A DNA stretch of 45,751 nucleotides. Origin: Acidobacteriota bacterium. GTDB taxonomy: Bacteria > Acidobacteriota > Vicinamibacteria > Vicinamibacterales > UBA8438. The notes under the pieces were generated by a model that did not search any database, was not told the DNA's origin, and saw only the letters and a list, made by a program, of their open reading frames with translations. Each line of letters begins with the position of its first letter. Within the stretch, counting starts at the first letter, position 1. The position numbers and the translations under genes are program-made. The stretch covers positions 6,575 through 52,325 of the forward strand of contig VXME01000059.1 of NCBI GenBank assembly GCA_009861545.1, written 5' to 3'. Shown piece by piece: positions 10,523 to 43,465 of the stretch.

Positions 10523-11328
10523 TGCGGGTGTCACCGGTCGTCGTGCTGGTGCTGGCCATGGTCAGCGTCGGGTTGCCGTCGTTCTCGGTGGCGCAGGCGG
10601 GACGGGCCGACGTGCAGGAGGGAAACCGTCTCTATCGCGAAGGCCGCTACGACGAGGCCCACGAGAAGTACCTCGATGGCCTGCGCGCCGCTCCGGACTC
10701 GCCGGTGATCCGCTTCAACGACGCCAACGCGCTGTACCAATCGGACGATTTCGGGAGGGCCGTCGACGCCTATCGCGGGGCTCTCGAGGCGGCCGACCCG
10801 GCGCTGCAGGCGCAGGCCTGGTACAACCTGGGGAACGCTCTCTACCGGCAGCGGCAGGTGGAGGGCGCGCGAGAGGCCTACAAGGAGGCGCTGCGGCGCA
10901 ACCCCGGGGATACCGACGCGAAGCACAACCTGGAGGTGGCCCTGGAGCAGTTGCAGCAGCAGGAACAGCAGCAGCAACGACAGCAACAGCAGTCCGACGA
11001 CTCCGAGGACCAGGACCAGCAGAATCAGGACCGGCAGCAATCGGGACAGGACGGACAGGAGCAGGCGTCCGAATCCCGGCAACCCCCGGAGCAGCCGCCG
11101 GAGGAGAACCCGGAGGATCAGCCGGGGCGGGACGGGCAGGAGGAGCGGCAGTCGAGCGGCGCGCAGCCCGAACCGGAAACCGGCGAGGGGGACGCGCAGC
11201 CGCAGCCCGGGCAGATGAGTCGTGAGGAGGCGGAGCGGCTGCTGCAGGCGATTACCGAGGATCCCGGCCGGATTCAGCGGCAGCGACGGTCCGCCGATCC
11301 CGGCCGGCGCACGCGACGACCGTGGTGA
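10522..11328 (+). CDS. batC: BatC-type TPR protein with Gln-rich tail
   Basis: This 268-residue protein has a signal peptide (~1-26), about three TPR units (~28-145, for example EGNRLYREGRYDEAHEKYLDG, AWYNLGNALYRQRQVEGA), then a strongly charged Gln/Asp/Glu/Pro-rich low-complexity region (~147-235). A conserved-looking C-terminal motif, MSREEAERLLQAITEDPG, follows at ~232-249. This TPR plus Q-rich layout with a terminal 'EEAERLLxAL' motif is characteristic of the BatC/BatB C-terminal TPR proteins. The C-terminal motif is probably a docking element. It is translationally coupled to batB (TGATG), and its end overlaps the batD start by 7 bp. Confidence 0.88.
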   Translation: MRVSPVVVLVLAMVSVGLPSFSVAQAGRADVQEGNRLYREGRYDEAHEKYLDGLRAAPDSPVIRFNDANALYQSDDFGRAVDAYRGALEAADPALQAQAWYNLGNALYRQRQVEGAREAYKEALRRNPGDTDAKHNLEVALEQLQQQEQQQQRQQQQSDDSEDQDQQNQDRQQSGQDGQEQASESRQPPEQPPEENPEDQPGRDGQEERQSSGAQPEPETGEGDAQPQPGQMSREEAERLLQAITEDPGRIQRQRRSADPGRRTRRPW

Positions 11329-13190
11329 AGACGATGCAGGTGAAGGGGACCCCTGCGTGCATCCTGACCGGGAGCGTCCTGGTTCTGCTGGTGCTCGGGG
11401 CGGCCGCTTCCACGGCGGCCCAGGGGGTGGAGGTCCGCGCCTACCTCGACCGTGCCGAGGTGGACGTAGACGGCCGGTTCACGCTGAACGTCGAGGTTTC
11501 GGGGGCGGGGCGGCCGAACGAGGAGCCGCGTCTGCCGGACTTGTCCGACTTCGCGGCCTACGAGGGCGTGGGCACCCAGACGTCGATGCAGTTCGTGAAC
11601 GGCCGTACGTCGACGTCGCTCACCTACCAGTACCGTTTCCGTGCGATTGCGGAAGGCACGCACCGGATCGGTCCGGTGCGGGTGCGGGCCGGCGGAGAGG
11701 ACCACGCGACCGAGCCGCTCGCCATCCGGGTGACGCCCGCCGGAACGGCCTCCGCGCAGAGCGCGCCGGACGCGTCGCGGAACGGCGTGGACATCGGGCC
11801 CGAGGATCTGTTCGTCGAGGCTTCGGTGAGCACTCGGGGGCCGTGGGTGAACGAGTCGGTGCTCGTCGAGTACCGGTTGTTCACGCGGGTGGACGTCGAA
11901 TCGTACGGCATCACGCGGCTACCCGCCACGACCGGCTTCTGGGTCGAGGAGATTGCCGTCCCGCGGGCGCCGCGCGTGGAGCAGGCGGTACGGGGCGGGG
12001 TGCAGTATGCGACCACCGTCGTACGCCGCGCGGCGCTGTTTCCGACCGGCGCCGGCTCGCGCACCATCGAGCCGCTGGCGCTCGAGGCGCAGGTGCGGGT
12101 CCGTTCCCGCCGGTTCTTCAGCGATCCCTTCGGTTTCGGCGATCCCTTCGGCGGCGGGCTGTTCGGCCGCAGCGTGCCGGTGCCGGTGCAGTCCGAGGCG
12201 ATCGAGATCGAGGTGCGGCCGCTGCCTCCCGCGGGCCGCCCGGACGCCTTCAGCGGCCTGGTCGGCAGCGTGGACGTCACGGCCTCGCTGGATCCGACGG
12301 CGGCGGCGACCAACGAGGCGCTCACCTTCCGGCTCGCCGTGCGCGGTGCAGGCAACCTGCGGGCGCTCACCGACCCCGAGGTGTCGTTTCCGCCGGATTT
12401 CGACGTGTATCCCCCGGATGTGAGCGAAGAGATCGACGCCGGCGCGGGCGGTGTGAGCGGGGTCAAGCGCTACGAGTACGTCCTGGTTCCCCGCGCTCCC
12501 GGCTCGCACGTCATTCCCGCCGTGGAGCTGCCCTACTTCGATGCGGCCGGCGGCCGTTACGCGGTTGCCGCGTCGAATCCCGTCGCGGTGGAGGTGACGG
12601 GCGACGCGGCGGCCGGCGGTCCGGCCCTCATCGGAAGTGGCAGGGCGCCGCTGGAGACGGCGCGTGAGGATATCCGGTTCATACGCGTCGCGACCTCGGC
12701 GTTCGTGCCGATCGACCGGCAACTGTTCGGGAGCGGCGTCTTCTGGATCCTGCTCCTGGTGCCGCTTCTCGGTTTCGCGGGCGCGCTCGCGCTGCGCCGC
12801 CACCGCGACCGTCTGGAGGGGAACGTCGCTTACGCCCGCCGGCGGCGGGCGTCGCGCACGGCGCGCTCGCGGCTGGCCCAGGCCCGGACGCTCCGCGCTC
12901 CGGAGCAGCACCAGGCGTTCGTCGCCGGTATCAGCCAGGCGCTGCTCGGCTTTCTGGGCGACTCGCTGAACGTCGCCGAGGCCGGGCTGGTGCGCGACGA
13001 CATCCGGCGTGCGCTGGCGGCGCGCGGCGTGCCCGACGACGTCGTCGAGCGCTACCTGGCGTGTCTCGACAAGTGCGACCAGCGGCGGTTCGCGCCGCCG
13101 GCGGCGGGGGACGACGGCGACGGCGCGGCGGCCGCCCTGCTCGCAGAAGCCGAGCGGGCGATGACCGCGTTGGGGGAAGCGCTGCGATGA
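11322..13190 (+). CDS. batD: BatD oxygen-tolerance-type protein
   Basis: This protein of about 622 residues has a signal peptide (~8-34), tandem beta-sandwich domains through residue ~450 and one transmembrane helix (~473-492, FWILLLVPLLGFAGALAL), then a basic cytoplasmic tail (~495-622). Typical BatD landmarks include YLDRAEVDVDGRFTLNVEVSG and QYRFRAIAEGTHRIGPVRV. A Phe/Gly-rich insert around residue 268-288 (DPFGFGDPFGGGLFG) is also common in the family. The GTG at 11322 overlaps batC. ATG 11334 (MQVKGTPACIL) is an equally good start and would only shorten the n-region. The stop overlaps the batE start (ATGA). BatD likely provides the periplasmic portion of the Bat complex. Confidence 0.9.
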   Translation: MVKTMQVKGTPACILTGSVLVLLVLGAAASTAAQGVEVRAYLDRAEVDVDGRFTLNVEVSGAGRPNEEPRLPDLSDFAAYEGVGTQTSMQFVNGRTSTSLTYQYRFRAIAEGTHRIGPVRVRAGGEDHATEPLAIRVTPAGTASAQSAPDASRNGVDIGPEDLFVEASVSTRGPWVNESVLVEYRLFTRVDVESYGITRLPATTGFWVEEIAVPRAPRVEQAVRGGVQYATTVVRRAALFPTGAGSRTIEPLALEAQVRVRSRRFFSDPFGFGDPFGGGLFGRSVPVPVQSEAIEIEVRPLPPAGRPDAFSGLVGSVDVTASLDPTAAATNEALTFRLAVRGAGNLRALTDPEVSFPPDFDVYPPDVSEEIDAGAGGVSGVKRYEYVLVPRAPGSHVIPAVELPYFDAAGGRYAVAASNPVAVEVTGDAAAGGPALIGSGRAPLETAREDIRFIRVATSAFVPIDRQLFGSGVFWILLLVPLLGFAGALALRRHRDRLEGNVAYARRRRASRTARSRLAQARTLRAPEQHQAFVAGISQALLGFLGDSLNVAEAGLVRDDIRRALAARGVPDDVVERYLACLDKCDQRRFAPPAAGDDGDGAAAALLAEAERAMTALGEALR

Positions 13191-17521: not shown

Positions 17522-18679
17522 ATGGAACTTATAGGTCGATTTCTTAAGGTTCCGAACCAGAGCTGCTTCTTGTTCGGCCCCCGTGGAACGGGGAAATCCA
17601 CGTGGTTGCACGACCGAATCCCCGACGCCCTGTTCGTCGACCTGCTCGATCCATCGACTCACCGCAACCTGAGTGCCCGCCCCGAGCGCCTGCGAGAACT
17701 GCTCGCAGGCGCACCCGGAAGAGAGACGGTGGTCATCGACGAGATCCAGCGCGTGCCGGAGCTGCTCACGGTTGTTCATGCAGTCATGGAGGAGCCGTCG
17801 CCGCCGCGCTTCATCCTGACAGGATCGAGCGCCCGGAAGCTGCGACGCGGCGGCGTGGACCTGCTCGGTGGCCGGGCCGTTCAACGCACGCTGCATCCGT
17901 TCATGGCGGCCGAGCTGCCGGGATTCGACCTTCAGCGGGCATTGCGATTCGGCCTGGTACCCCTCGTGGTCGGCGCTTTCGATCCCGCGGAGGTCCTGGC
18001 CGGCTACGCGAGCCTGTACCTCGACCAGGAAGTGCGGGCGGAGGGCCTGACTCGCAACGTCGGGAGCTTCACCCGCTTTCTGGAGGCGATCAGCTTCTCC
18101 CACGGCGCGCAGCTCAACGCTTCGGCGGTCGCCCGCGAGTGCGAGGTCGAGCGGAAGGTCGTCGCCGGATACGTCGGCATTCTGGAGGACCTGCTGCTGG
18201 CGTTCCGGCTGCCGGTCTTCCGGAAACGGGCTAAGCGCGCGACCGTGAGGCACGACAAGCTCTACCTGTTCGACGCTGGCGTGTTCCGGTCGCTGCGCCC
18301 GAAGGGGCCGCTGGACCGTCCCGAGGAGATCGACGGGCAGGCGCTGGAAGGACTGGTGGCCCAGCATCTTCGGGCTTGGGTAGCGTATTCCGGACGCGAC
18401 GCGAAGCTCTTCTTCTGGCGGACGCGGGCGGGTGCGGAGGTCGACTTCGTCGTCTATGGGGAAGCGGGCGTACAGGCGTTCGAGGTCAAGAACGCGGCCA
18501 GGGTGCATTCCACGGATCTGCGGTCGCTGCGGGCATTCCGCGACGACTACCCGGAGGCCGAGACCGCGGTGCTCTACCGCGGCCGAGAGCGTCTGCGGAT
18601 CAACGGTGTCTGGTGTCTGCCGGTCGAGGAGTTCCTGCGGCGCGTGTTGCCGGATCGAGGGCTGCTGGCCTGGTTGTGA
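17522..18679 (+). CDS. AAA ATPase with DUF4143 C-terminal domain
   Basis: This 385-residue protein has an N-terminal P-loop: Walker A GPRGTGKS at 19-26 and Walker B VVIDE at 70-74 followed by IQRVPELL, with the LTGSSARKLRR sensor region at ~100-110. The C-terminal DUF4143 domain (~170-370) carries a nuclease-like signature, AEVDFVV (~305-311) and FEVKN (~320-324). Length and layout are standard for this family (AAA_14 plus DUF4143), which is common on accessory DNA with no settled function; proposals include toxin-antitoxin-like or defence roles. The start lacks an obvious ribosome site. A palindromic leader precedes it. The TIR-like gene is convergent, 92 bp away. Confidence 0.9.
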   Translation: MELIGRFLKVPNQSCFLFGPRGTGKSTWLHDRIPDALFVDLLDPSTHRNLSARPERLRELLAGAPGRETVVIDEIQRVPELLTVVHAVMEEPSPPRFILTGSSARKLRRGGVDLLGGRAVQRTLHPFMAAELPGFDLQRALRFGLVPLVVGAFDPAEVLAGYASLYLDQEVRAEGLTRNVGSFTRFLEAISFSHGAQLNASAVARECEVERKVVAGYVGILEDLLLAFRLPVFRKRAKRATVRHDKLYLFDAGVFRSLRPKGPLDRPEEIDGQALEGLVAQHLRAWVAYSGRDAKLFFWRTRAGAEVDFVVYGEAGVQAFEVKNAARVHSTDLRSLRAFRDDYPEAETAVLYRGRERLRINGVWCLPVEEFLRRVLPDRGLLAWL

Positions 18680-18771
18680 TCTGTTTCGTTCGGTCGTCGC
18701 GCAGCGCTCGTCGGGTATGTGACCCAGTCGGTAATAGCCATTGAAGCTTCGGCGAGTCGAGCGTCGTGTGC

Positions 18772-19569
18772 TCATAAGGCCCGGTTCGCATCGACGTCGA
18801 AACCGGCAGTCTGGAGCTCCTTGACGAGCGTCAACTTCCACGCACCAGGCTCGTCCAACGTAATGTACACGACACCCGAGTAGTCGGAGGGAATGTCTAC
18901 CTCGCCCTTGGTCAGCGCGCAGACTCCTTTCCGACCGAGCTTGCCTATGAAGTAGCCGAGTTCGAAGATCACGTTCTGTCTGGCTCGATGCGTCGGAAGT
19001 TCACCCTCAAGCGACCCGGTATCGTCAGGTGTCAGCAACGCAATGGCGAACTTGACGTGCGCATATTTCTCGAATTTCTCGATGATTGTCTGTCCGTGAC
19101 TCGGCTGCTCGCCCAACACCACCGCTTCAAGTGTCAATTGCTCGAGAAATCTCGCCACGGTTTGCGTGGCACCGTCATCGCGGCCGTGAACAAGAAACAC
19201 CTCATGGCCCATTACTAATCGTTCCTGCTGGCTCCGAGCAGGGGGCTTGGACTGATCATCGCTCGGCCAATATTCCGTGACTTCGTCAATCATCGATGCG
19301 AGGACAGAAGCAGCAGACACCAAGCCTTTGACATAAGCTTCATGAGTCTCGTGTAAGGATGCGGGAGCGAACATAACGCAATAGTTGATAGAAGTGAAGT
19401 CCTGAAGGTGGCGGGTGTCGTCGCCGAAGGTGTTCGTGATGGCTACCTCGGTGTTTCTTGTCCACCTGCTGAATCTGGGAGACTCAGCATTTAGTGCCTT
19501 CAAATCGGGGATTTCGTCCAGCGCTGCTTGGAGACGCTCGAGAGCCTTAACCTTGGTTGGTTTCACCAT
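18772..19569 (-). CDS. TIR-like nucleotide-binding protein (PF10137 type), probable defence gene
   Basis: This 265-residue protein starts at ATG 19569. The N-terminal ~115 residues are helical (FSRWTRNTEVAITNTFGDD, INYCVMFAP). The C-terminal ~140 residues form the TIR-like domain with EVFLVHGRDDGATQTVARFL (123-142), FAIALLTPDD (174-183) and RARQNVIFELGYFIGKLGRK (196-214). E203 is the likely catalytic glutamate of NAD-cleaving TIR-type enzymes. The same domain appears as effector (Cap12, PycTIR) in CBASS and Pycsar systems, but no cyclase gene is adjacent. The sequence is less GC-rich than its neighbours, suggesting transfer. A role in abortive anti-phage defence or NAD turnover is inferred, not shown. 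In-frame sequence upstream to 19617 has no domain. Confidence 0.85.
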   Translation of the reverse strand: MVKPTKVKALERLQAALDEIPDLKALNAESPRFSRWTRNTEVAITNTFGDDTRHLQDFTSINYCVMFAPASLHETHEAYVKGLVSAASVLASMIDEVTEYWPSDDQSKPPARSQQERLVMGHEVFLVHGRDDGATQTVARFLEQLTLEAVVLGEQPSHGQTIIEKFEKYAHVKFAIALLTPDDTGSLEGELPTHRARQNVIFELGYFIGKLGRKGVCALTKGEVDIPSDYSGVVYITLDEPGAWKLTLVKELQTAGFDVDANRAL

Positions 19570-19777
19570 TCTGTGCTTCTTGGGATTCCGGCCACTTCGC
19601 CGCGATGGCGAACTCACCGTCCATTCGTCGGCGTCGTTCGGACAGTACCCTGGCCCGGCATTGGCGCTTCCTCAACGTGACCTGTTCAGTCCATCATTGT
19701 AGCCGCACGATGAACGCCGTAGTTGTTTTCGTACACAGTTGCCAGCAGAACGGTACGCGCACCGGCTGCTCAGGCCA

Positions 19778-20887
19778 TCAGGTCTCAGTGAGGGAGACAC
19801 AGCTCAGACCGTGGGCGGCGGCCACCGCCTCGTGCGTCACGTGCCCGTCGACGACGTTGACGCCCTTCGCGAGTGCCGGGTCGCGCGCGGCGGCGACGCG
19901 CCAGCCGCGGTCGGCGATCTCCAGTGCGTAGGCCATCGTGGCGTTGGTCAGGGCGTAGGTCGACGTATGGGGCACGGCGCCGGGCATATTCGAGACGCAG
20001 TAGTGGACCACGCCTTCCTCGACGTAGCGCGGGTCGTGGTGGGTGGTCGGCCGGCTGGTCTCGGCGCAGCCCCCCTGATCGACGGCGACATCGACGAGCG
20101 CCGATCCCGGTTCCATCTGCGCCAGGTGGGCGCGGGTGACGAGGCGCGGGGTGCGGGCGCCGGGGATGAGGACGGAGCAGAGGACCAGGTCGGCGGACGC
20201 CACCGCGCCCTCGATGTTGGCGGCGTTCGACATCAGCGTGGTGACGTGGCCCTGGACGACGTCCCGGACGTAGGCCAGGCGTAACGGATTGATGTCGATG
20301 ATCGTGACGTCCGCCCCGAACCCGACGCCCACCACGCAGGCGTTGAGGCCGACGACGCCGGCCCCGATGATGGTCACGCGGCCGCGGCGGACGCCCGAGA
20401 CCCCGGGCAGCAGGATGCCCTTGCCGCCGGAACGCATCTCCAGCGACGTGGCGCCGGCCTGGATCGACAGCCGCCCCGCGACCTCTGACATCGGCACGAG
20501 CAACGGGAGCGTCCCGTCGGCGAACTGCACCGTCTCGTAGCCGATTCCGACCACGCGGCGATCGAGCAGCCGGGTGGTCAACTCACGCGATGCGGCCAGA
20601 TGGAGGTAGGTGAAGACGATCTGGCCGGGCCGCATCCGGTCGAACTCGGGATCGAGCGGTTCCTTCACCTTGAGGACGAGATCCGCGCGTTCCCATACCG
20701 CGTCCGGACCGTCGACCACGCCGGCGCCGGCGGCCTGGTAGGCCTGGTCGGGGATCGCGCTGCCGACCCCGGCTCCCGCCTCGATGACCACCTCGTGCCC
20801 GCGCGCCATGAACGCGGCGACGCCGGACGGGGTGATGGCGACGCGGTGCTCGTCCGCCTTGATCTCCGCAGGGATGCCGATGCGCAT
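19778..20887 (-). CDS. ald: Alanine dehydrogenase
   Basis: This 369-residue enzyme matches alanine dehydrogenase throughout. The N-terminus is MRIGIPAEIKADEHRVAITP, with KVKEPL (~74-79) and FTYLHLAA (~91-98). The Rossmann motif is GAGVVGLNA near 175-183, followed by DINPLRL, and the conserved Asp region AVDQGGC and the ending NMPGAVPHTSTYALTNAT are present. It interconverts L-alanine and pyruvate plus ammonia with NAD(H), in the cytosol. The length is normal. It lies 93 bp downstream of the NhaC-type gene on the same strand and may be read with it, but its own start has a TAGTCT box six bases before ATG, so independent expression is possible. Confidence 0.96.
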   Translation of the reverse strand: MRIGIPAEIKADEHRVAITPSGVAAFMARGHEVVIEAGAGVGSAIPDQAYQAAGAGVVDGPDAVWERADLVLKVKEPLDPEFDRMRPGQIVFTYLHLAASRELTTRLLDRRVVGIGYETVQFADGTLPLLVPMSEVAGRLSIQAGATSLEMRSGGKGILLPGVSGVRRGRVTIIGAGVVGLNACVVGVGFGADVTIIDINPLRLAYVRDVVQGHVTTLMSNAANIEGAVASADLVLCSVLIPGARTPRLVTRAHLAQMEPGSALVDVAVDQGGCAETSRPTTHHDPRYVEEGVVHYCVSNMPGAVPHTSTYALTNATMAYALEIADRGWRVAAARDPALAKGVNVVDGHVTHEAVAAAHGLSCVSLTET

Positions 20888-22744: not shown

Positions 22745-23761
22745 CTACGGCGCGGGGAAGCGCCCGATGCGCGTGCCGCCGCCGACCGCGCCGACCCAGA
22801 TCTCGTCGCCGACCTGGATGCCGACGGTGCCCAGAATGATGCGATCGTTCGAGGGATAACGAACGATCTCCTCCTGGGCAAGGCTGTTGGGGATGATCTT
22901 CGCCACCCGCGACGTGACCCCGTCGCACGCGCCCTGGCCGAGACAGGCGAAAATGGAGTCCGGCCCAGTGCCCGCGTGGCCGGCCGCCAGCAGCGTGCCG
23001 TCCGGCGCCCAGTGGACGTTGTCGACGTGGAAACCGACGTCGACCGAGTCGACCACCACCGGCGTCCGGCCCCGCGACAGTCGGATCAGCGACTGCGTGC
23101 CCCAGCCGCCGATGTAGAGCCATTCACCGTCGGGCGACGCTTCGATGCCGTTGGGGCCGGCGGTCGCGCTGCCCGGCACCTCCGTCCAGCCGGCGCCCGG
23201 CTGCCATTCCCACAGCTCGCCGGTCGAGCGCTGGAAGTTGGTGGCGACGAAGGCGCCGTCCGGGAGCGCCGCTACCGAGTTCAGGCCGACGCCTGCGGGC
23301 GCCACGGCGCAACCGATCCAGGTGGCGGCGGGCACCTCGCCGCGCGCGTCGAGCTCGAAGACCTCCACCGACTCGCGGGCGCCGTGGCGCACCACGTACA
23401 GGGTGTGCACCCCCTCGTCGCCGGGGCGCAGGCCGAGCCCGTGCGGCTGGAAGCCGCTGGTGTCCGGACCGGGGCAGGCGCCGTACAGCGCGGTGTCGTG
23501 GCGCGGCGCCGAGGTGTCGAGCGGGAAGATCGGCCGCGAGGAGTGGTCGCGGGCATCGGTCGCATAAAGGTGGCCATCATCCATCATGCTCGAGACGATG
23601 ACCCAGGGAGAGTCCGGCACCGCGGCCAGGTCTTCGGGACTCACCGGCCCGCAGACGAACTCGACGTCGCCGTCCGGATCGCACTGCGCCGCACCCGCGG
23701 CGGGCAGAATGAGCAGGCAGGCGGCCGCCACCGCTGACATCAGGTACATCCGCGCCCTCAT
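22745..23761 (-). CDS. Secreted SMP-30/paraoxonase-like beta-propeller
   Basis: This 338-residue protein has a signal peptide (MRARMYLMSAVAAACLLILP, cleavage after AGAA near residue 24) and then about six propeller blades. Landmarks are HGLGLRPGDEGVHTLYVV, VEVFELD, LNSVAALPDGAFVATNF, PNGIEASPDGEWLYIGGWG and HVDNVHWAPDGTLLAAGHAG. These match the SMP-30/gluconolactonase and paraoxonase/arylesterase superfamily, calcium-dependent lactone or ester hydrolases. The substrate cannot be assigned. A perfect AGGAGG ribosome site precedes the ATG, and CATAAT (23802-23807, minus strand) is a possible -10. It is likely first in an operon with the NhaC-type gene. Confidence 0.82.
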   Translation of the reverse strand: MRARMYLMSAVAAACLLILPAAGAAQCDPDGDVEFVCGPVSPEDLAAVPDSPWVIVSSMMDDGHLYATDARDHSSRPIFPLDTSAPRHDTALYGACPGPDTSGFQPHGLGLRPGDEGVHTLYVVRHGARESVEVFELDARGEVPAATWIGCAVAPAGVGLNSVAALPDGAFVATNFQRSTGELWEWQPGAGWTEVPGSATAGPNGIEASPDGEWLYIGGWGTQSLIRLSRGRTPVVVDSVDVGFHVDNVHWAPDGTLLAAGHAGTGPDSIFACLGQGACDGVTSRVAKIIPNSLAQEEIVRYPSNDRIILGTVGIQVGDEIWVGAVGGGTRIGRFPAP

Positions 23762-23801
23762 GAGTCCTCCTTTCGCGGGCTACGTGCCCGAACCCGCCGC
23801 G

Positions 23802-23807
23802 ATTATG
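23802..23807 (-). promoter_or_regulatory. Possible -10 box for the propeller-nhaC operon
   Basis: CATAAT on the minus strand lies about 40 bp upstream of the propeller start, with no convincing -35. The remaining divergent gap up to the penicillin acylase gene (23762-24048) shows no gene or repeat that I can support. Confidence 0.3.
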
Positions 23808-24048
23808 TCACGTGGTCGGGATGGCGTCCGCCCGTGGAAGCGGGCCCCACGTGCTGCCGCGGCCTGGCGCGCGTCGGAGGGATTGCGCCCGCGCCGCGGA
23901 AAGGCGATGATCGGTGGCAGGCGCCGGTGGACCGCGCGCCGGCGCAATCCGTGCCGCCGGACGAACCGCTGCCTGGCGGTCACGGTCTCTCCCCGAGCGC
24001 ATGCGGTCGAGCCGCCGGGAACGCTCGAGAACGTCGAGGATGCAGACG

Positions 24049-26451
24049 ATGTCAGAACTCTTCGCAAGGACGTCGGAAGGTTTCGGCCGCCGGTTCGGAC
24101 ACCGCGGCCCCGGGTTCGGGCTCGCGTGGTTCGCCCGCGCGGCGCTGATCGCGTTGGCGGCGGCCACGGCCGGCTGCGCCGCCGATGAATCCGGAGGCCC
24201 CGCCTCGCTCGACGAGCTCGCACGAGGCGCGCTGGCCACGATCGACGGGGAGTTGGCGGTGCCCGGCCTGAAGGAGCCGGTCGAGGTGATCCGCGACGAG
24301 TGGGGCGTGCCGCACATCTACGCGCAGAACGACGACGACCTGTTCTTCGCGCAGGGCTACGTCATGGCCCAGGACCGGCTGTGGCAGATGGAGATGTGGC
24401 GCCGCTGGCGCGAGGGGCGGCTGGCCGAGGTCTTCGGGCCGGAGGCGCTCGACTACGACCGCCGCACCCGGCTGATGATGTTCCGCGGGCCGTGGGACGA
24501 GACCGAGTGGACCAGCTATCACCCCGACGCCCACCGGCTGTTCACCGCGCACGCCAGCGGGGTCAACGCCTTCATCGAGCAGAACCGAGACAATCTGCCG
24601 GTGGAGTTCCAGCTCACCGGCGTCGAGCCGTTGCCCTGGACGGCGGAGACTGCCGTGCTGCGCTGGGCCGCGCTCGGCGTGCCGAGCGTGCGGGGGCACG
24701 CCATCCACGAGATGCAGCTCGCCCTCGACGTCGCCCGTTACGGCGCGGAGGAGGCGAACCGGCGCTTCGCCCCGGACCCGTGGGACAACCTGGTCGTACC
24801 GGAGGGGCTCGACGTCAGCATCATCACCGAGGAGATCCTCGACGCCATGCGCGCCGGGGACGGCGACCCGTTCGTGACGGGGCGTCTGCCCGCGCTGGAG
24901 ATCGTCGAGCCGTACCGTGCACTGGTCGCGGCTCCGGGGTTGCAGACCCGCCAGGTCTCGCCCCGGCCGATCGCGACCGAAGGGAGCAACAACTGGGTCA
25001 TGACCGGCGAGCGCTCGCCGTCCGGGGTGCCGATTCTCGCCAACGATCCCCACCGGCGCATCGAAATGCCGGCGCTGCGCTACTTCGTGCACCTGGTGGC
25101 GCCCGGCTGGAACGTCATCGGGGGCGGCGAGCCGCCCTTCGCCGGGGTCGACGCGGGCAGCAACGACCGCATGGCGTGGGGCTTCACCTTCGCCGGCACC
25201 GACATGGTCGACGTCTACGTCGAGGAGCTGCACCCGGAGGATCCGGACCTGGTGCGCTGGCAGGACGGCTGGGAGCCGCTGCGGGTCATCGAGGAGGAGA
25301 TCCCGGTCAAGGGGCAGGAGCCCGAGCCGGTGGTGCTGAAGTTCAGCCGGCACGGCCCCGTCTTCTACGAGGATCTGGAGAACCGCGTCGCCTACGCCGT
25401 GCGCTCGGTCGTGCAAGAGCCCGGCACCGCCGCCTACAAGGGCAGCTTCCAGCTCGCCCAGGCGGAGAGCTGCGCCGATTTCTTCGAGCGCGCGATGCAC
25501 TGGTTGGTCCCGACGCACAGCCTGGTCTGCGGCGACGCGGACGGCAACATCGCCCTGCAGGTGACCGGCCTGACCCCGGACCGCGACGGCTGGAATGGCC
25601 GGCTGCCGGTGCCCGGCAACGGCGACTACGAGTGGCAAGGGTTTCGGGAGGACCTGCCGCGGGAGTTCAATCCCGAGCGGGGCTACGTCGCGACGGCCAA
25701 CAACAATGTTCACCCGCCCGGCTACGAGGGGCGGCCGGTCTTCTACCACACCTCGCGCGGCGTGGAGACGTCGCGCATAGCGCGCCTGCACCAGATCCTC
25801 GGCGCGGGCGAGGTGCTCTCCGTGGAGGACCACAAGCGCATCCAGCACGACTCTCGCCTGCTCGCGGCCGAGCGGGACATCCCGGCCTTCCGGGGCTGGA
25901 CGTCCGACGACCCGGATGTGGAATGGGCGCGCGGCCTGATCGCCGACTGGGACGCTACGGTCTCGCGGGAGAGCATCGCGGGAGCGCTCTACGTGCGCTG
26001 GAACGCCGCAGTCGACGATGCCGTCCGGGACGATGAAACGCCCGCGGCCGAGCGGCAGGCGCTTGTCGAGCAGGGCTTGACGGCCGCGATCGAGCGGCTT
26101 GGCGAGGAGCTCGGTCCCGACCGGGCCGAGTGGCGCCACGGCCGGGTCCACGCCAGCGAGCTGGCGCACATGCTGGCCCCGGCGTTCGACCTGCCGGCGG
26201 TGGAGCGTCCCGGCGGCTTCGGCTCGCTCAACGCCACCGGCGCCAACTTCCGGCGCATCATCGACCTTGCGGATCCGGATCGCTCCGTCGCGAGCAACGC
26301 CCCGGGGCAGTCGGCCCAGCCCGGCAGCCCGTACTACGGCAACCTGGCGCCGAACCTCGGCAACGGCGAGTACTTCCCCCTGCTCTTTACGCGTGGGGCG
26401 GTGGAGGAGCGGGCCGCGCACCGGTTGACGCTACGGCCGGCCGAGGACTGA
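24049..26451 (+). CDS. Penicillin acylase family (Ntn hydrolase) lipoprotein
   Basis: This 800-residue protein starts at ATG 24049, placed 9 bases after GAGGA. A basic N-terminus and hydrophobic stretch end in TAGC, a good lipobox, so it is an envelope lipoprotein. The chain is laid out as alpha subunit, linker and beta subunit. EVIRDEWGVPHIYAQNDDD and AQGYVMAQDRLWQMEMWRR mark the alpha subunit. The catalytic beta-subunit N-terminal serine is S313 in EGSNNWVM, where self-cleavage is expected. NDPHRRIEMPA, FAGVDAGSNDRMAWGFT and the asparagine-bearing YVATANNNVHPPGY region follow. Such enzymes hydrolyse amides, including beta-lactam side chains or acyl-homoserine lactones; the substrate here is unknown. 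ATG 24040 and upstream starts are alternatives. Confidence 0.92.
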   Translation: MSELFARTSEGFGRRFGHRGPGFGLAWFARAALIALAAATAGCAADESGGPASLDELARGALATIDGELAVPGLKEPVEVIRDEWGVPHIYAQNDDDLFFAQGYVMAQDRLWQMEMWRRWREGRLAEVFGPEALDYDRRTRLMMFRGPWDETEWTSYHPDAHRLFTAHASGVNAFIEQNRDNLPVEFQLTGVEPLPWTAETAVLRWAALGVPSVRGHAIHEMQLALDVARYGAEEANRRFAPDPWDNLVVPEGLDVSIITEEILDAMRAGDGDPFVTGRLPALEIVEPYRALVAAPGLQTRQVSPRPIATEGSNNWVMTGERSPSGVPILANDPHRRIEMPALRYFVHLVAPGWNVIGGGEPPFAGVDAGSNDRMAWGFTFAGTDMVDVYVEELHPEDPDLVRWQDGWEPLRVIEEEIPVKGQEPEPVVLKFSRHGPVFYEDLENRVAYAVRSVVQEPGTAAYKGSFQLAQAESCADFFERAMHWLVPTHSLVCGDADGNIALQVTGLTPDRDGWNGRLPVPGNGDYEWQGFREDLPREFNPERGYVATANNNVHPPGYEGRPVFYHTSRGVETSRIARLHQILGAGEVLSVEDHKRIQHDSRLLAAERDIPAFRGWTSDDPDVEWARGLIADWDATVSRESIAGALYVRWNAAVDDAVRDDETPAAERQALVEQGLTAAIERLGEELGPDRAEWRHGRVHASELAHMLAPAFDLPAVERPGGFGSLNATGANFRRIIDLADPDRSVASNAPGQSAQPGSPYYGNLAPNLGNGEYFPLLFTRGAVEERAAHRLTLRPAED

Positions 26452-39300: not shown

Positions 39301-40914
39301 ATGGATTGGCGACGACTGATCGCTGGACTCTCCGTCCTGACGCTCGCCGCGGCCGGTGCGGCCACGGCGGCGGAGGAGACCACCCTCGCAGACGCGGCCG
39401 AGCAGGGGCAGGGCAAGATCGTCCGCACCCTGCTCGCCGACGGCGCGGACGTGAACGCCCCGCAGGTCGACGGAACGACCGCCCTGCACTGGGCGGCCTA
39501 CCACGACGACCTCGATACGGCCCGGCTGCTGCTCGAGGCGGGCGCCGACGCCAACGCGGTGAACCGCTACGGCGTGCCGGCGCTGTCGCTGGTTGCCACC
39601 AACGGCAACGCCGACTTCGTGCGTCTCCTGCTCGACGCAGGGGCCGACCCGAACGTGGCGCTGCTGGGCGGAGAGACGGTGCTGATGACCGCGGCGCGCA
39701 CCGGAAGCCTCGCCGCGGTGAAGGCGCTGCTGTCCGCGGGCGCCGACCCGGATGCTCGCGAGCGGCGGGAGCAGACCGCGCTGATGTGGGCTGCCTCGGA
39801 GGGGCACCTGGGCATCGTCAATGCCCTGCTCGACGCGGGCGGGGATGTGCACGCGTCTCTGAGGTCCGGGTTCACACCGCTGTTCTTCGCGGTGCGCGAG
39901 GGCAACATCGACGTCGTGCACCGGCTCCTCGAGGCAGGAGTGGATGTGAACGCGGTCCTCGAACGCGTGAAGGACGGTCCTGACGCTGCGGTCAACAACG
40001 CCAGCTACCGGCCGATCGACGACGGCATGAGCCCGCTGCTCTTTGCGGTCCGCAATGGCCACTTCGAGCTCGCGGTCGACTTGATCGAGGCCGGCGCCGA
40101 CCCGAACGACCAGCGCAGCGGATTCGCTCCGCTGCACACGATGTCGTGGGTGAGGAAGCCGGATGCAAGCGACCGCGGCGACCCGCCGCCCATCGGGTCC
40201 GGCAGCCTGACCGGGCTGCAGTTCGTGCGCAAGCTCGCGGATCTGGGTGCGGACGTCAACCTGCAGCTCAACAGCGCCGTCCGTCCGCCGCACACCGCGT
40301 CGCGGCTCGGCATGGAGGGAGCAACGGCGTTCCTGATGGCCGCGGACAGGGCCGACGCGCCGTTCATGCAGTTGCTGCTGGAACTCGGTGCGGACCCGTT
40401 CATTCCGAACGTCGAGGGCTCCACGCCGCTGATGGCGGCAGCCGGGCTCGGCACCACGGCGCCGGAGGAGGAAGCCGGCTCGGAGGCCGAGGCGCGTGAC
40501 GCGGTCGAGTTGCTGGTCGAGCTCGGCGCCAACCTCGACGCCGTCGACGACAACGGCGACACCGCGGTGCACGGCGCCGCGTTCGCCAGCTTCCCGACGG
40601 TGGTGCAGCAGCTCGCCGACTACGGAGCCGATATCCACGTCTGGACGCAGCCGAACGAGCAGGGCCGCACGCCGCTGTTCATCGCCGAGGGGTTCCGTGG
40701 CGGGCTCCCGCGGCCGTCGCGCGCCACCATCGAGGTGGTCACGTTCCTGATGGACGGCGCCGGCATTTCCACGGCCGGGCCGCGGCCGGAGCTCATCGAC
40801 CAGTACTCGCTGCCCGCGCAGCAGCCGCAGCCGCCTCCGGCGCAGCCTGCCAAGCCCGAGGAGAAGCAGGAGAAGTCCGACCAGGCTGCCAAGGCGCAGC
40901 CGCAGGTGCGTTAG
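39301..40914 (+). CDS. Secreted ankyrin-repeat protein
   Basis: This 537-residue protein starts at ATG 39301 (MDWRRLIAGLSVLTLAAAG). A signal peptide is cleaved near ATAA (~24). About ten ankyrin repeats follow (DGTTALHWAAYHDDLDTARL, LLEAGADANAV and so on), interrupted near residue 275-330 by an insert rich in Pro/Gly (RKPDASDRGDPPPIGSG), and the protein ends in a Gln/Pro/Lys-rich tail (~505-537). Third gene of the DUF1592-DUF1552 operon, a recurrent association in this group; a role in holding the exported enzymes together is inference. It is the same kind of protein as the ankyrin gene at 125-1513. A strong terminator lies 28 bp after its stop. Confidence 0.92.
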   Translation: MDWRRLIAGLSVLTLAAAGAATAAEETTLADAAEQGQGKIVRTLLADGADVNAPQVDGTTALHWAAYHDDLDTARLLLEAGADANAVNRYGVPALSLVATNGNADFVRLLLDAGADPNVALLGGETVLMTAARTGSLAAVKALLSAGADPDARERREQTALMWAASEGHLGIVNALLDAGGDVHASLRSGFTPLFFAVREGNIDVVHRLLEAGVDVNAVLERVKDGPDAAVNNASYRPIDDGMSPLLFAVRNGHFELAVDLIEAGADPNDQRSGFAPLHTMSWVRKPDASDRGDPPPIGSGSLTGLQFVRKLADLGADVNLQLNSAVRPPHTASRLGMEGATAFLMAADRADAPFMQLLLELGADPFIPNVEGSTPLMAAAGLGTTAPEEEAGSEAEARDAVELLVELGANLDAVDDNGDTAVHGAAFASFPTVVQQLADYGADIHVWTQPNEQGRTPLFIAEGFRGGLPRPSRATIEVVTFLMDGAGISTAGPRPELIDQYSLPAQQPQPPPAQPAKPEEKQEKSDQAAKAQPQVR

Positions 40915-40941
40915 CCGCTCTTGCACGGAACTACAGCAAAC

Positions 40942-40989
40942 GCCTCGGGCGGCTGGTCCGGTTCGACCACCGCCCGGGGCTTTTTCTTT
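40942..40989 (+). terminator. Rho-independent terminator of the DUF1592-DUF1552-ankyrin operon
   Basis: GCCTCGGGCGG pairs with CCGCCCGGGGC (one G-T pair), and the inner TGGTC/GACCA extends the stem around a short loop. A T-rich tract (TTTTTCTTT) follows at 40981-40989. This is the clearest intrinsic terminator in the window. Confidence 0.9.
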
Positions 40990-41364
40990 GGGGCGGCCGC
41001 AGCAAGACCTCGTGCGCGATGGGTTGGAAGGATCATTTGGCGGGTGATGAGCGCTTGGCTGATGTGGCGGGTGGTTCGACGCTCGACGGATCAGAGCTCG
41101 GCGACGGTTGCGTGTTCCCGCTCGTTAGCGGCGCCACGGGGCCCATTCTGCGTCGACTGAGAGGCGGTCGCGCCCAGCGGCTCCTCGACGAAGATGACGT
41201 CGACCGCGAAGTCCATTCTCGCTGAGGTCAATGTGTGGCTAGGCGACGTTGGTCGCGCTTCGCACTTCCGCCGCAGCCCCGCACTGTCATCGGTCGGAAA
41301 CGTCTCCGGCAACCGCTGCGTGATCTCGCCGGTGATTCCTTCCTGAACGCTCCCGCACGGCAGA
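40990..41364. other. Gap without a recognisable gene
   Basis: This ~375-bp stretch separates the terminator from the lower-GC island. Short open frames exist on both strands, including a 73-codon minus-strand frame at 41091-41312, but none has a ribosome site, a known motif or continuity. It may be decayed coding sequence. Confidence 0.5.
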
Positions 41365-41394
41365 TTGGTTGATTCGGTGTTCGGATACTATACT
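41365..41394 (+). promoter_or_regulatory. Promoter of the split dCTP-deaminase-like locus
   Basis: TTGGTT (41365-41370), an 18-bp spacer and TATACT (41389-41394) precede the gene by ~25 bp. A strong GGGAGGA ribosome site (41403-41409) follows. The AT-rich promoter matches the shift in base composition that starts here. Confidence 0.5.
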
Positions 41395-41417
41395 GACCAG
41401 ATGGGAGGACGCGAGAC

Positions 41418-41648
41418 TTGACATTCATCAGGACATCTGAGTGGGCGACGCACAATGTAGAGATACGAGAAAAGAAACCTGATGGGGAATTGAGGGTTCT
41501 CGAGTACACCGGTGCGGGCGGAATGAGCCGCGATCTCTCGATAAAGGGCGTTCACGTAAAGAGGGGCGGTGCGTCCGTTCACAAAGTGCACGAAGACTTC
41601 GTCCTCAAGCCGAACGATGCGTTGTTCTTGAAACAATGGAACATATAA
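41418..41648 (+). CDS. N-terminal half of a dCTP-deaminase/dUTPase-like protein
   Basis: This 76-residue product starts at TTG 41418, nine bases after GGGAGG; no ATG is in frame. The end, HEDFVLKPNDALFLKQWNI, corresponds to the segment of dCTP deaminases (PGEFVLxxTLExVxLP-like) that immediately precedes the core strand encoded by the next overlapping frame. Alone it is too short for the fold. It overlaps the following gene by 13 bp in another frame. Either the two make separate subunits, or they are one gene broken by a frameshift, or a -1 recoding event joins them. The region is visibly lower in GC than both flanks. Confidence 0.6.
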   Translation: MTFIRTSEWATHNVEIREKKPDGELRVLEYTGAGGMSRDLSIKGVHVKRGGASVHKVHEDFVLKPNDALFLKQWNI

Positions 41649-42001
41649 CGACTGGTCCTCAAGTGCTGGGCTTCATATGTTCTCGGGCTTCTTTGGCGTC
41701 CAAGGGCCTCATTGTTTCTAACCTGAAGGTAGATCCAAATTACAGCGATACGCTTTACATCACCGTGTTTAATGCCGGCACTGGAAGTATTCCGCTCGAA
41801 CCGGGATACCCTTTTTGTGCGGTCGTTTTCTGTCAGACTGACGGAGAGTGCCAGGGTGAGACCCGTAGACCGGACCCGGAGGGGATCTCTGATGGCTGGG
41901 CCGAGAAGCTGATCAAGGCCCGCCCGCATATCGTTACGGGAGTGATTACTTTCGTTATCAGTGTTGTTGGTAGTATCGTGGCAATGCTGGTGATGGGTTA
42001 G
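41636..42001 (+). CDS. Core of dCTP-deaminase/dUTPase-like fold with C-terminal membrane anchor
   Basis: This 121-residue protein reads VLGFICSRASLASKGLIVSN (10-29), KVDPNYSDTLYITVFNAGT (31-49) and IPLEPGYPFCAVVF (52-65). This follows dCTP deaminases and trimeric dUTPases (VGxxxGRSSLARxGL, IDPGxxG, LxPGMxIxxLxF). Compared with E. coli Dcd, the positions of S111, R115 and E138 appear here as A18, S22 and T43, so deaminase chemistry is probably lost while the nucleotide-binding shape is kept; D33 matches the dUTPase/Dcd aspartate. A transmembrane helix (98-119) ends the protein. Family membership is judged by motifs only. Confidence 0.65.
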   Translation: MEHITTGPQVLGFICSRASLASKGLIVSNLKVDPNYSDTLYITVFNAGTGSIPLEPGYPFCAVVFCQTDGECQGETRRPDPEGISDGWAEKLIKARPHIVTGVITFVISVVGSIVAMLVMG

Positions 42002-42037
42002 AGATGGACTGAGAGGCCAGGATGGAGGGTATGTGAT

Positions 42038-42448
42038 ATGTCAGAAAGACACCATAGCTCTAGAGATGATCCGCGCTACATGGCCCTGAGAAAAGGGATC
42101 GAACAGCTCAACCGGAATCAGTTGACGGTGCTTGTCGAGTCGGTGGAGTCTGGCGATCCCATGGTCGTTGACGGGTGCAACTATGATCCGGTGAGCCGCA
42201 CTTGGTGTCCTCTCGCCGTCGCCCTGGAAGTTGAGCGCATTCTACGTGACGAAGGTATAACGGCTGCGACGGACGAAGAAGCCAAGGAGCATATTGTAAG
42301 AATTGGCACAAGAACGAACCCCGGGTTTGGCTTGAACCCGATGAGCGGTGTTGTCGGGAGCTTCTTCACTCGTTCTCGCAGAGACGACCTGCTGCAGGCA
42401 TGTAGGGACGTGCTGGACGAGAGTACCTACTATAACGGAGGATACTGA
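42038..42448 (+). CDS. Protein of unknown function, 136 aa, in low-GC island
   Basis: This soluble-looking 136-residue protein has a good GGAGGG ribosome site eight bases before ATG 42038. Notable segments are LNRNQLTVLVESVESGDPMV (24-43), a Cys/Asp region GCNYDPVSRTWCPLAVALEV and RTNPGFGLNPMSGVVGSFF. The WCPLAVAL segment recalls the 'CCLGV' motif of some phage-linked small proteins, but the match is weak. I do not recognise a family. It shares base composition and direction with the split dCTP-deaminase-like locus 36 bp upstream and is probably part of the same unit. Confidence 0.75.
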   Translation: MSERHHSSRDDPRYMALRKGIEQLNRNQLTVLVESVESGDPMVVDGCNYDPVSRTWCPLAVALEVERILRDEGITAATDEEAKEHIVRIGTRTNPGFGLNPMSGVVGSFFTRSRRDDLLQACRDVLDESTYYNGGY

Positions 42449-42514
42449 AGGCGGAGAACGGGTAACGGCGTCGACGGTCTGCACGTACGAGTGGAGCCGG
42501 AACAGGAAACCTCA

Positions 42515-43465
42515 ATGACGATTCAGACGCTTCTTCACCGCGTTCTTGCTGCAATCATGATCTTCCCCGCTCTCGGCGCCGCGCAGACCGAGCCGCCTGG
42601 ATTCGTCATGTGGAGCGCGGCGGAGCTCGCGCAACGGAACGCGGCTCTTGCGGAGCAGGCACGCCCGGACGGCTCCGCCCGCGAGACGCTGGCCGACTAC
42701 GGCAACCCGGGCGGCGCCCACCGGTTTCGCTTTATTCGGCGGGATGTCGATGGCATGCCCGAGCAGCACGCGAACATTGAGGACGTGGTGTTCATCCAGA
42801 GCGGGGCGGGCACGCTCGTGGTCGGCGGTGAGATGGTCGACCGGGCCGGCGCCAACGGCGAGTACCGGGGAAGTGACATAGCCGGTGGGGTGGAATATCC
42901 GGTCGGTGCGGGTGACGTTGCCCATATTCCGGCGGACACGCCGCACCGTTACCTGGTGCCGGAGGGCGGCCACCTGACTTACGTGCTGGTCAGGCTCCCG
43001 GCGTTCACCGGCGAGCCGGTGGCGCGCGCCGACACACCGGTGCTCGACTTCGAGCCGCCGGGGTTCGCGATGTGGAGCGCGGCGGAGCTGGATCGGCGCA
43101 ACGCGGCCCTGGCGACCAGGATTCGCCCGGACCGCTCCGCCCGCGAGACGCTGGCCGACTACGGCAACCCGAGCGGCGCCCACCGCTTCCGCTTCATCCA
43201 CCGCGATGCGGATGGGGTGCCGGAGATCCACGACGAGATCATCGACGTGGTGCTGATTCAGAGCGGTGCCGGGAGCCTACTGGTGGGCGGAGAGATGCTG
43301 GACCGGGACGGCAGCCGGGGCAGCGGCATCGCGGGTGGTGAACGTCATCCGGTAGCGGCCGGCGACGTGCTCCATATCCCGGCGCGAACGCCGCACGGCT
43401 ACCTGGTGCCGGATGGCGGTCACGTCACGTACGTGCTTGTGCGGACCCCGGCATTCGTTCCGTAG
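42515..43465 (+). CDS. Secreted bicupin protein (tandem cupin duplication)
   Basis: This 316-residue protein starts at ATG 42515. A signal peptide (~1-24, ending LGAAQ) precedes two nearly identical cupin halves, about 27-170 and 178-314. Each begins PPGFxMWSAAEL and contains ARETLADYGNPxGAHRFRF, a GAGxLxVGGEM strand and HIPAxTPHxYLVPxGGHxTYVLVR. Cupins bind a metal through His/Glu. The histidines in EQHANIEDVV/EIHDEIIDVV and TPHxYLVP are candidates. The halves are far more alike than most cupin duplications, so the fusion is recent. Enzymatic role unknown. It starts where high GC resumes after the island. Confidence 0.82.
   Translation: MTIQTLLHRVLAAIMIFPALGAAQTEPPGFVMWSAAELAQRNAALAEQARPDGSARETLADYGNPGGAHRFRFIRRDVDGMPEQHANIEDVVFIQSGAGTLVVGGEMVDRAGANGEYRGSDIAGGVEYPVGAGDVAHIPADTPHRYLVPEGGHLTYVLVRLPAFTGEPVARADTPVLDFEPPGFAMWSAAELDRRNAALATRIRPDRSARETLADYGNPSGAHRFRFIHRDADGVPEIHDEIIDVVLIQSGAGSLLVGGEMLDRDGSRGSGIAGGERHPVAAGDVLHIPARTPHGYLVPDGGHVTYVLVRTPAFVP

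Follow-up and report, generated by a model that had tools for sequence, protein, structure and literature searches.

A low-GC gene pair from an acidobacterium: a membrane-anchored, apparently non-catalytic DCD-like protein and a new 136-residue partner

A low-GC segment with small, co-directed genes raises the question of whether its DCD-like gene encodes a working enzyme, a nucleotide-binding protein with another task or the remains of an acquired gene, and what the adjoining gene for a 136-aa protein contributes. The segment lies in a stretch of 45,751 nucleotides, here called the window (G000:C59:6575-52325), which belongs to an assembly of 6.35 Mb in 174 contigs. Comparisons were made with a family sample of 28 genomes and an order sample of 162 genomes.

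Composition and layout of the cassette

The GC content of positions 41386-42448 was 0.532, about 4.6 SD below the mean of sliding 1063-bp windows across the whole window (0.691, SD 0.034), and the GC minimum for a kilobase was located at 41351-41401. The low-GC island described in an earlier sequence-only reading was confirmed as the lowest-GC kilobase of the window (53% versus 69%). GC3 was 0.55-0.65 for the three frames of the cassette versus 0.82-0.92 for the flanking genes. A second, milder GC dip (0.56-0.59) was present at about 18500-20000 and is unlinked to the cassette. The following features were assigned, in which L047 is the contig of a sister species:

41386..42460, + strand: low-GC cassette, delimited by composition and by blastn against L047
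41403..41409, + strand: Shine-Dalgarno-like GGGAGGA ahead of the TTG start, from the sequence
41418..41648, + strand: first frame of gene 1, 76 aa with a TTG start, from the ORF list; residues 1-66 form the N-terminal part of the DCD-like protein (intact homologue L047:7379-7963)
41610..41640, + strand: frameshift zone, one base fewer than in the intact sister-species copy (blastn gap at about 41617-41618)
41636..42001, + strand: second frame of gene 1, 121 aa, with the remaining DCD-like core and the membrane anchor and without a ribosome site (ORF list, profile match, hydropathy)
41681..41779, + strand: predicted nucleotide-site core SRASLASKGLIVSNLKVDPNYSDTLYITVFNAG, with catalytic S/R/E changed to A/S/T and Asp kept (alignment)
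41939..41998, + strand: predicted C-terminal transmembrane helix (tail anchor), hydropathy 2.5 over 19 residues
42024..42029, + strand: Shine-Dalgarno-like GGAGGG ahead of the 136-aa gene, from the sequence
42038..42448, + strand: 136-aa protein, predicted soluble, of a new family (ORF list, alignment; no family match)

The blastn homology with the L047 copy begins at 41386 and continues through the downstream cupin gene, so that the right edge of the cassette is approximate. The island had been credited with its own promoter and strong ribosome sites. A sigma-70 scan of 40900-43000 did not bear out the promoter (0 found, 0.8 expected); the ribosome sites stood for the TTG start and the 136-aa gene, but none was found before the ATG at 41636 of the second frame. 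No convincing target-site duplication was seen around the window cassette. The cassette is best explained as an acquired, foreign-looking low-GC unit of two genes.

Two observations concern its surroundings. Just upstream (41010-41257 of the window and L047:6891-7254) lies a remnant that by eye resembles vapBC toxin-antitoxin genes and had no Pfam match. The downstream cupin gene (42589-43457) looks internally duplicated, since either half can also be aligned to the opposite half of the gene in the relative, with a DNA identity of about 73-75%.

The apparent split of gene 1

The two frames of gene 1 overlap by 13 bases in the window and had been read as a split protein. This did not survive the comparison with the sister species, in which a single intact 194-aa ORF (L047:7379-7963) is found at the corresponding place, flanked by an ankyrin-repeat gene and the cupin gene. 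As the window copy is one base shorter, the split is a frameshift and not an arrangement. For the genes compared in the main syntenic blocks with L047 (leaving aside the gene limits around 34412 and 35442), no other gap was seen to break a reading frame. This makes general assembly noise unlikely as the cause of the gap near 41617; a local sequence error at this site is possible. If the sequence is correct, the window copy of gene 1 is probably inactive.

Domain, active site and membrane anchor of the DCD-like protein

The joined frames matched Pfam PF22769 (DCD) with an E value of 1e-10, and the intact L047 protein matched the same profile with 9e-13, both above the curated cut-off. NCBIfam dCTP_deam (TIGR02274) was matched at 1.3e-14, and the score of 54.3-54.7 bits is below the equivalog cut-off of 92.8. 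Further matches were obtained to PDB dCTP deaminases (5e-7) and to a PHROG dCTP deaminase family. The dUTPase profiles matched weakly (Pfam PF00692, 5e-5; NCBIfam dut, TIGR00576, 6e-5 to 2e-4, with 22.7 bits versus a cut-off of 102.6). The Dcd/dUTPase-like core proposed earlier was thus recovered by the profile search of the joined protein, as a member of the domain family and under the equivalog cut-off. Neither protein of the pair matched a PADLOC defence model. Two further, tandem-DCD genes elsewhere in the window genome serve housekeeping, so that the gene of the cassette is not the housekeeping one.

Structure prediction was too weak to favour any one reading. The AlphaFold models of both proteins were of low confidence (pLDDT 43.5 and 54.4), so that fold and site geometry rest on the sequence. 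Foldseek ranked dUTPases first for the DCD-like model, yet at an E value of 0.03, which is below significance and obtained with a low-confidence model; the equally low-confidence model of the 136-aa protein matched nothing.

In the alignment, S111, R115 and E138 of E. coli Dcd correspond to A, S and T in the window, L047 and G405, and D128 is retained. Both S111 and R115 were present in all soluble Dcds of the same alignment. The core SRASLASKGLIVSNLKVDPNYSDTLYITVFNAG was identical in copies from two to three genera, and the segment EHITTGP(Q/E)VLGFICSRASLASKGLIVSNLKVDPNYSDTLYITVFNAGTGSIPL was otherwise unchanged across three copies, from two genera and the sister species. As judged by eye, dUTPase motif 3 is kept (VDPNY resembles it), Ala stands in for the Ser of motif 2, and the membrane helix takes the place of the C-terminal, Gly-rich motif 5. 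The last 19 residues had a mean Kyte-Doolittle hydropathy of 2.5 (2.3-2.5 across copies), in agreement with the transmembrane helix noted before, and Lys/Arg immediately before the helix suggest a cytoplasmic domain with a tail anchor. The earlier proposal of a membrane-anchored, probably catalytically dead protein was therefore upheld by the A/S/T exchange and the terminal helix; as inferred from its residues, the DCD-like protein would be dead as a deaminase.

The 136-aa partner

The co-directed 136-aa protein was confirmed as an ORF at 42038-42448, on the same strand as the DCD-like frames. Its conserved stretches are VVDGCNY(D/N)P...TWCPLAVAL and TDEEAK...TNP.F.LNPM.G(I/V)VGSFFT. One scan of 84,980 species genomes yielded a single relative, in L047 (80% identical, MAG CO36386bin_12); judging from their matching proteins, L047 and G418:C157 are apparently one and the same contig. 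No relatives were found in plasmids, phages, viral contigs, Pfam, NCBIfam, PHROGs, PADLOC or PDB, and none outside the family. Weak matches from the phylum sample were rejected as apparent chance hits, since most lay in long GC-rich frames or spanned stop codons. A single decayed fragment of the gene was present in G405:C446.

Distribution, insertion sites and selection

The DCD-like gene was present in 4 of the 28 family genomes (the window genome, G418, G405 and G401), and no further close copy was found among the 162 genomes of the order. The G418 (L047) copy is intact. The G405 copy, 74% identical, is frameshifted near residue 24 and followed by the 136-aa gene, and the G401 copy is cut off after residue 87. 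One copy of gene 1 in four is thus intact, two are frameshifted at different sites and one is truncated, while the 136-aa frame was intact in all three copies where it was visible. With this pattern, it is unlikely that the 136-aa protein is a free toxin held in check by the DCD-like protein. The gene order proved to recur, the pair being present in two other genomes of the family (L047/G418 and G405); gene 1 is frameshifted in two of the three pairs.

The cassettes of G405 and G401 are both situated 3' of a gene that is sbcC-like by eye, and the one in G405 is flanked by a 165-bp imperfect direct repeat (85%) of the end of this gene. Together with the site shared by the window and L047, the unit occupies at least two sites. 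The 3' side of the sbcC-like gene is a variable site, with the DCD-like cassette in two genomes (L058 = G405:C122 and L059 = G401:C36) and a by-eye antitoxin-like gene in G400.

Selection was estimated by the method of Nei and Gojobori. Between the window and L047, dN/dS was 0.039 for the C-terminal 120 codons of gene 1 (35 synonymous and 6 non-synonymous changes), 0.23 for its N-terminal 66 codons and 0.20 for the 136-aa gene. Against G405, the 136-aa gene gave values of 0.07-0.11, with synonymous changes near saturation. Both genes are under purifying selection. The low values, which include the part behind the frameshift, indicate that if function has been lost in the lineage of the window, this happened recently.

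Other membrane-anchored DCD-like proteins

Thirteen further DCD-like proteins that end in a membrane helix (L014, L016, L023, L041-L045, L064-L068) were compared. R115 and E138 were absent in all 13 and S111 in 12 (L041 being the exception), and D128 was kept in all 13. Most of them adjoin 5-hmdU-kinase-like (HMUDK_hel), MazG, thymidylate-synthase or UDG genes or lie in prophages. On alphaproteobacterial plasmids and in the Acidobacteria G259 and G281, the neighbours were HMUDK_hel, MazG/MazG_C, thymidylate synthase, thymidylate kinase and uracil-DNA glycosylase, and these loci also carried XRE, ImmA/IrrE and papain-like peptidase genes. Prophage-like surroundings were seen for L064, with Nmad2 and UDG-like genes, and L072. 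HMUDK_hel was found in 6 of 396 sampled Acidobacteria genomes, with a membrane-anchored DCD beside it in two of the six.

None of the ORFs of the window beside the pair is an HMUDK_hel, MazG_C, thymidylate-synthase or UDG gene, and HMUDK_hel had no match in the window's own genome. The defence-gene neighbourhood looked for at this locus is therefore a feature of most other membrane-anchored DCDs and not of the window pair. In the tree, soluble and membrane-anchored proteins were parted (100/98) with L047 on the membrane-anchored side, but branches were very long, that of the L047 protein among them, and the alternative was not rejected (AU p 0.525). An independent origin of the window protein is possible. 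Anti-phage systems that have been validated by experiment include thymidylate-synthase and 5-hmdU-kinase domains (PMC13092281); the main text of that paper does not name a DCD or deaminase.

Several features of the wider group were recorded in passing. Triad-less membrane-anchored DCDs, labelled dCTP deaminase or hypothetical (L041-L044, L065-L068, L073, L074), were seen repeatedly in mobile operons. These operons combine HMUDK_hel, MazG_C, thymidylate synthase or UDG with genes for XRE, ImmA/IrrE and papain-like peptidase proteins, and several also encode AcpS and a small acyl-carrier-like protein. The gene immediately upstream of the membrane-anchored DCD-like one encodes a conserved partner, here called A5 (137-195 aa, motif RxKHxxLHxxKY...DHxE, no Pfam match), at L041:5258-5782, L043:5325-5828, L045:4218-4805, L066:5414-5995 and L068:5584-5997. 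The 136-aa protein has no similarity to A5. On a Gloeothece plasmid (L106, NC_011732.1) genes for a CBASS-type phospholipase and for TIR-domain proteins adjoin the 5-hmdU-kinase-like/MazG pair, which looks like an exchange of effectors at this locus. An Acinetobacter plasmid (L057, NZ_CP113934.1) carries two membrane-anchored DCD-like copies (10648-11400 and 23736-24494), one of which is in fragments ahead of a broken nucleotide-kinase-like gene.

Discussion

The gene pair is real and under-described; its DCD domain family is known and the 136-aa family is new. With E. coli Dcd (TIGR02274) the window protein shares the domain family (PF22769 above cut-off) and core motifs including VDP, but it differs by the A/S/T triad, a shortened N-terminus and the C-terminal membrane anchor. 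Trimeric dUTPases (PF00692, TIGR00576) are approached by a weak profile match and the motif-3-like VDPNY, whereas the window protein, as judged by eye, lacks the motif-2 Ser and motif 5; it also has a membrane anchor and scores far under the NCBIfam cut-off. The other membrane-anchored DCDs, for example those of S. fredii (WP_104840050.1) and Qipengyuania (WP_301643153.1), have likewise lost the triad, keep D128 and carry a C-terminal membrane helix, but their anchor is preceded by a longer linker, which in several is coiled-coil-like, and they have a GLINVSGFHVDPG core, A5 as upstream partner and mostly HMUDK_hel/MazG/thymidylate-synthase/UDG operons. AvcID-type nucleotide-depleting deaminase defences share the pyrimidine-nucleotide theme and the small unit. 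In AvcID, however, the deoxycytidylate deaminase is active and the antitoxin is an RNA (PMC10511110), whereas the window protein lacks the deaminase residues and its partner is a protein.

We tentatively favour the reading that the pair consists of a tail-anchored, non-catalytic nucleotide-binding sensor or effector and a new 136-aa partner, perhaps with an anti-phage role. The DCD/dUTPase-fold domain would most likely be cytoplasmic and trimeric beneath the membrane. Because the triad is lost and the pocket core with the D128 equivalent is invariant, the domain most likely binds, but does not deaminate, a pyrimidine (deoxy)nucleotide. The pair would most likely read a dUTP/dCTP/dTTP-type pool, which phages and stress alter, and its output would be at the membrane, with the DCD-like protein as sensor or effector and the 136-aa protein as its regulator or partner. 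Against this reading, the pair is confined to one bacterial family among the genomes searched, carries a frameshifted gene 1 in two of its three occurrences and lacks the defence and nucleotide-modification neighbours of the wider group.

The damage to three of the four copies of gene 1, and the lack of the cassette in most of the 28 family genomes, would also be expected if acquired genes without a present role were decaying, the function being lost in the family and the window copy being a pseudogene. This is somewhat unlikely given the strong purifying selection on both genes between the window and the sister species, which extends behind the frameshift, and given that indel errors can occur in metagenome assemblies. 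That gene 1 breaks while the 136-aa frame stays intact is what a costly gene 1 would show, and two small adjoining genes in variable sites, beside a decayed toxin-antitoxin-like remnant or 3' of sbcC, would suit a toxin-antitoxin-like pair with a harmful membrane DCD-like protein restrained by the 136-aa protein; we consider this rather improbable, as no known toxin or antitoxin family was matched and the sample is small.

Gene 1 might instead encode an enzyme that is altered yet active, a dUTPase-like pyrophosphatase at the membrane that works through the retained Asp and Tyr. The VDPNY motif and the weak dUTPase profile matches would agree with this, but the apparent loss of the motif-2 Ser, the apparent replacement of motif 5 by the helix and the low dut score make it very unlikely. 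Programmed frameshifting that fuses both frames into one protein is least likely, and extremely so: the frames overlap in the window, but the sister species has one continuous ORF and the shift in G405 is at another place. It is already refuted as a conserved mechanism by the intact copy, and a split-gene design was ruled out on the same two observations.

Going beyond the sensor or effector reading preferred here, the dead, tail-anchored DCD fold might be a receptor for phage-altered pyrimidine nucleotides at the membrane, paired in this family with the new 136-aa protein, the wider group being the same receptor in hypermodification defence operons; this extension is speculative and, on balance, unlikely. 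Members of the wider group are often publicly labelled "dCTP deaminase" in spite of their missing catalytic residues, so that entire operons may be mistaken for metabolic ones. With an invariant core, an anchor and an intact copy available, the idea can be tested directly. If it is true, dead enzymes serving as nucleotide sensors would be a new nucleotide-pool receptor in bacterial immunity.
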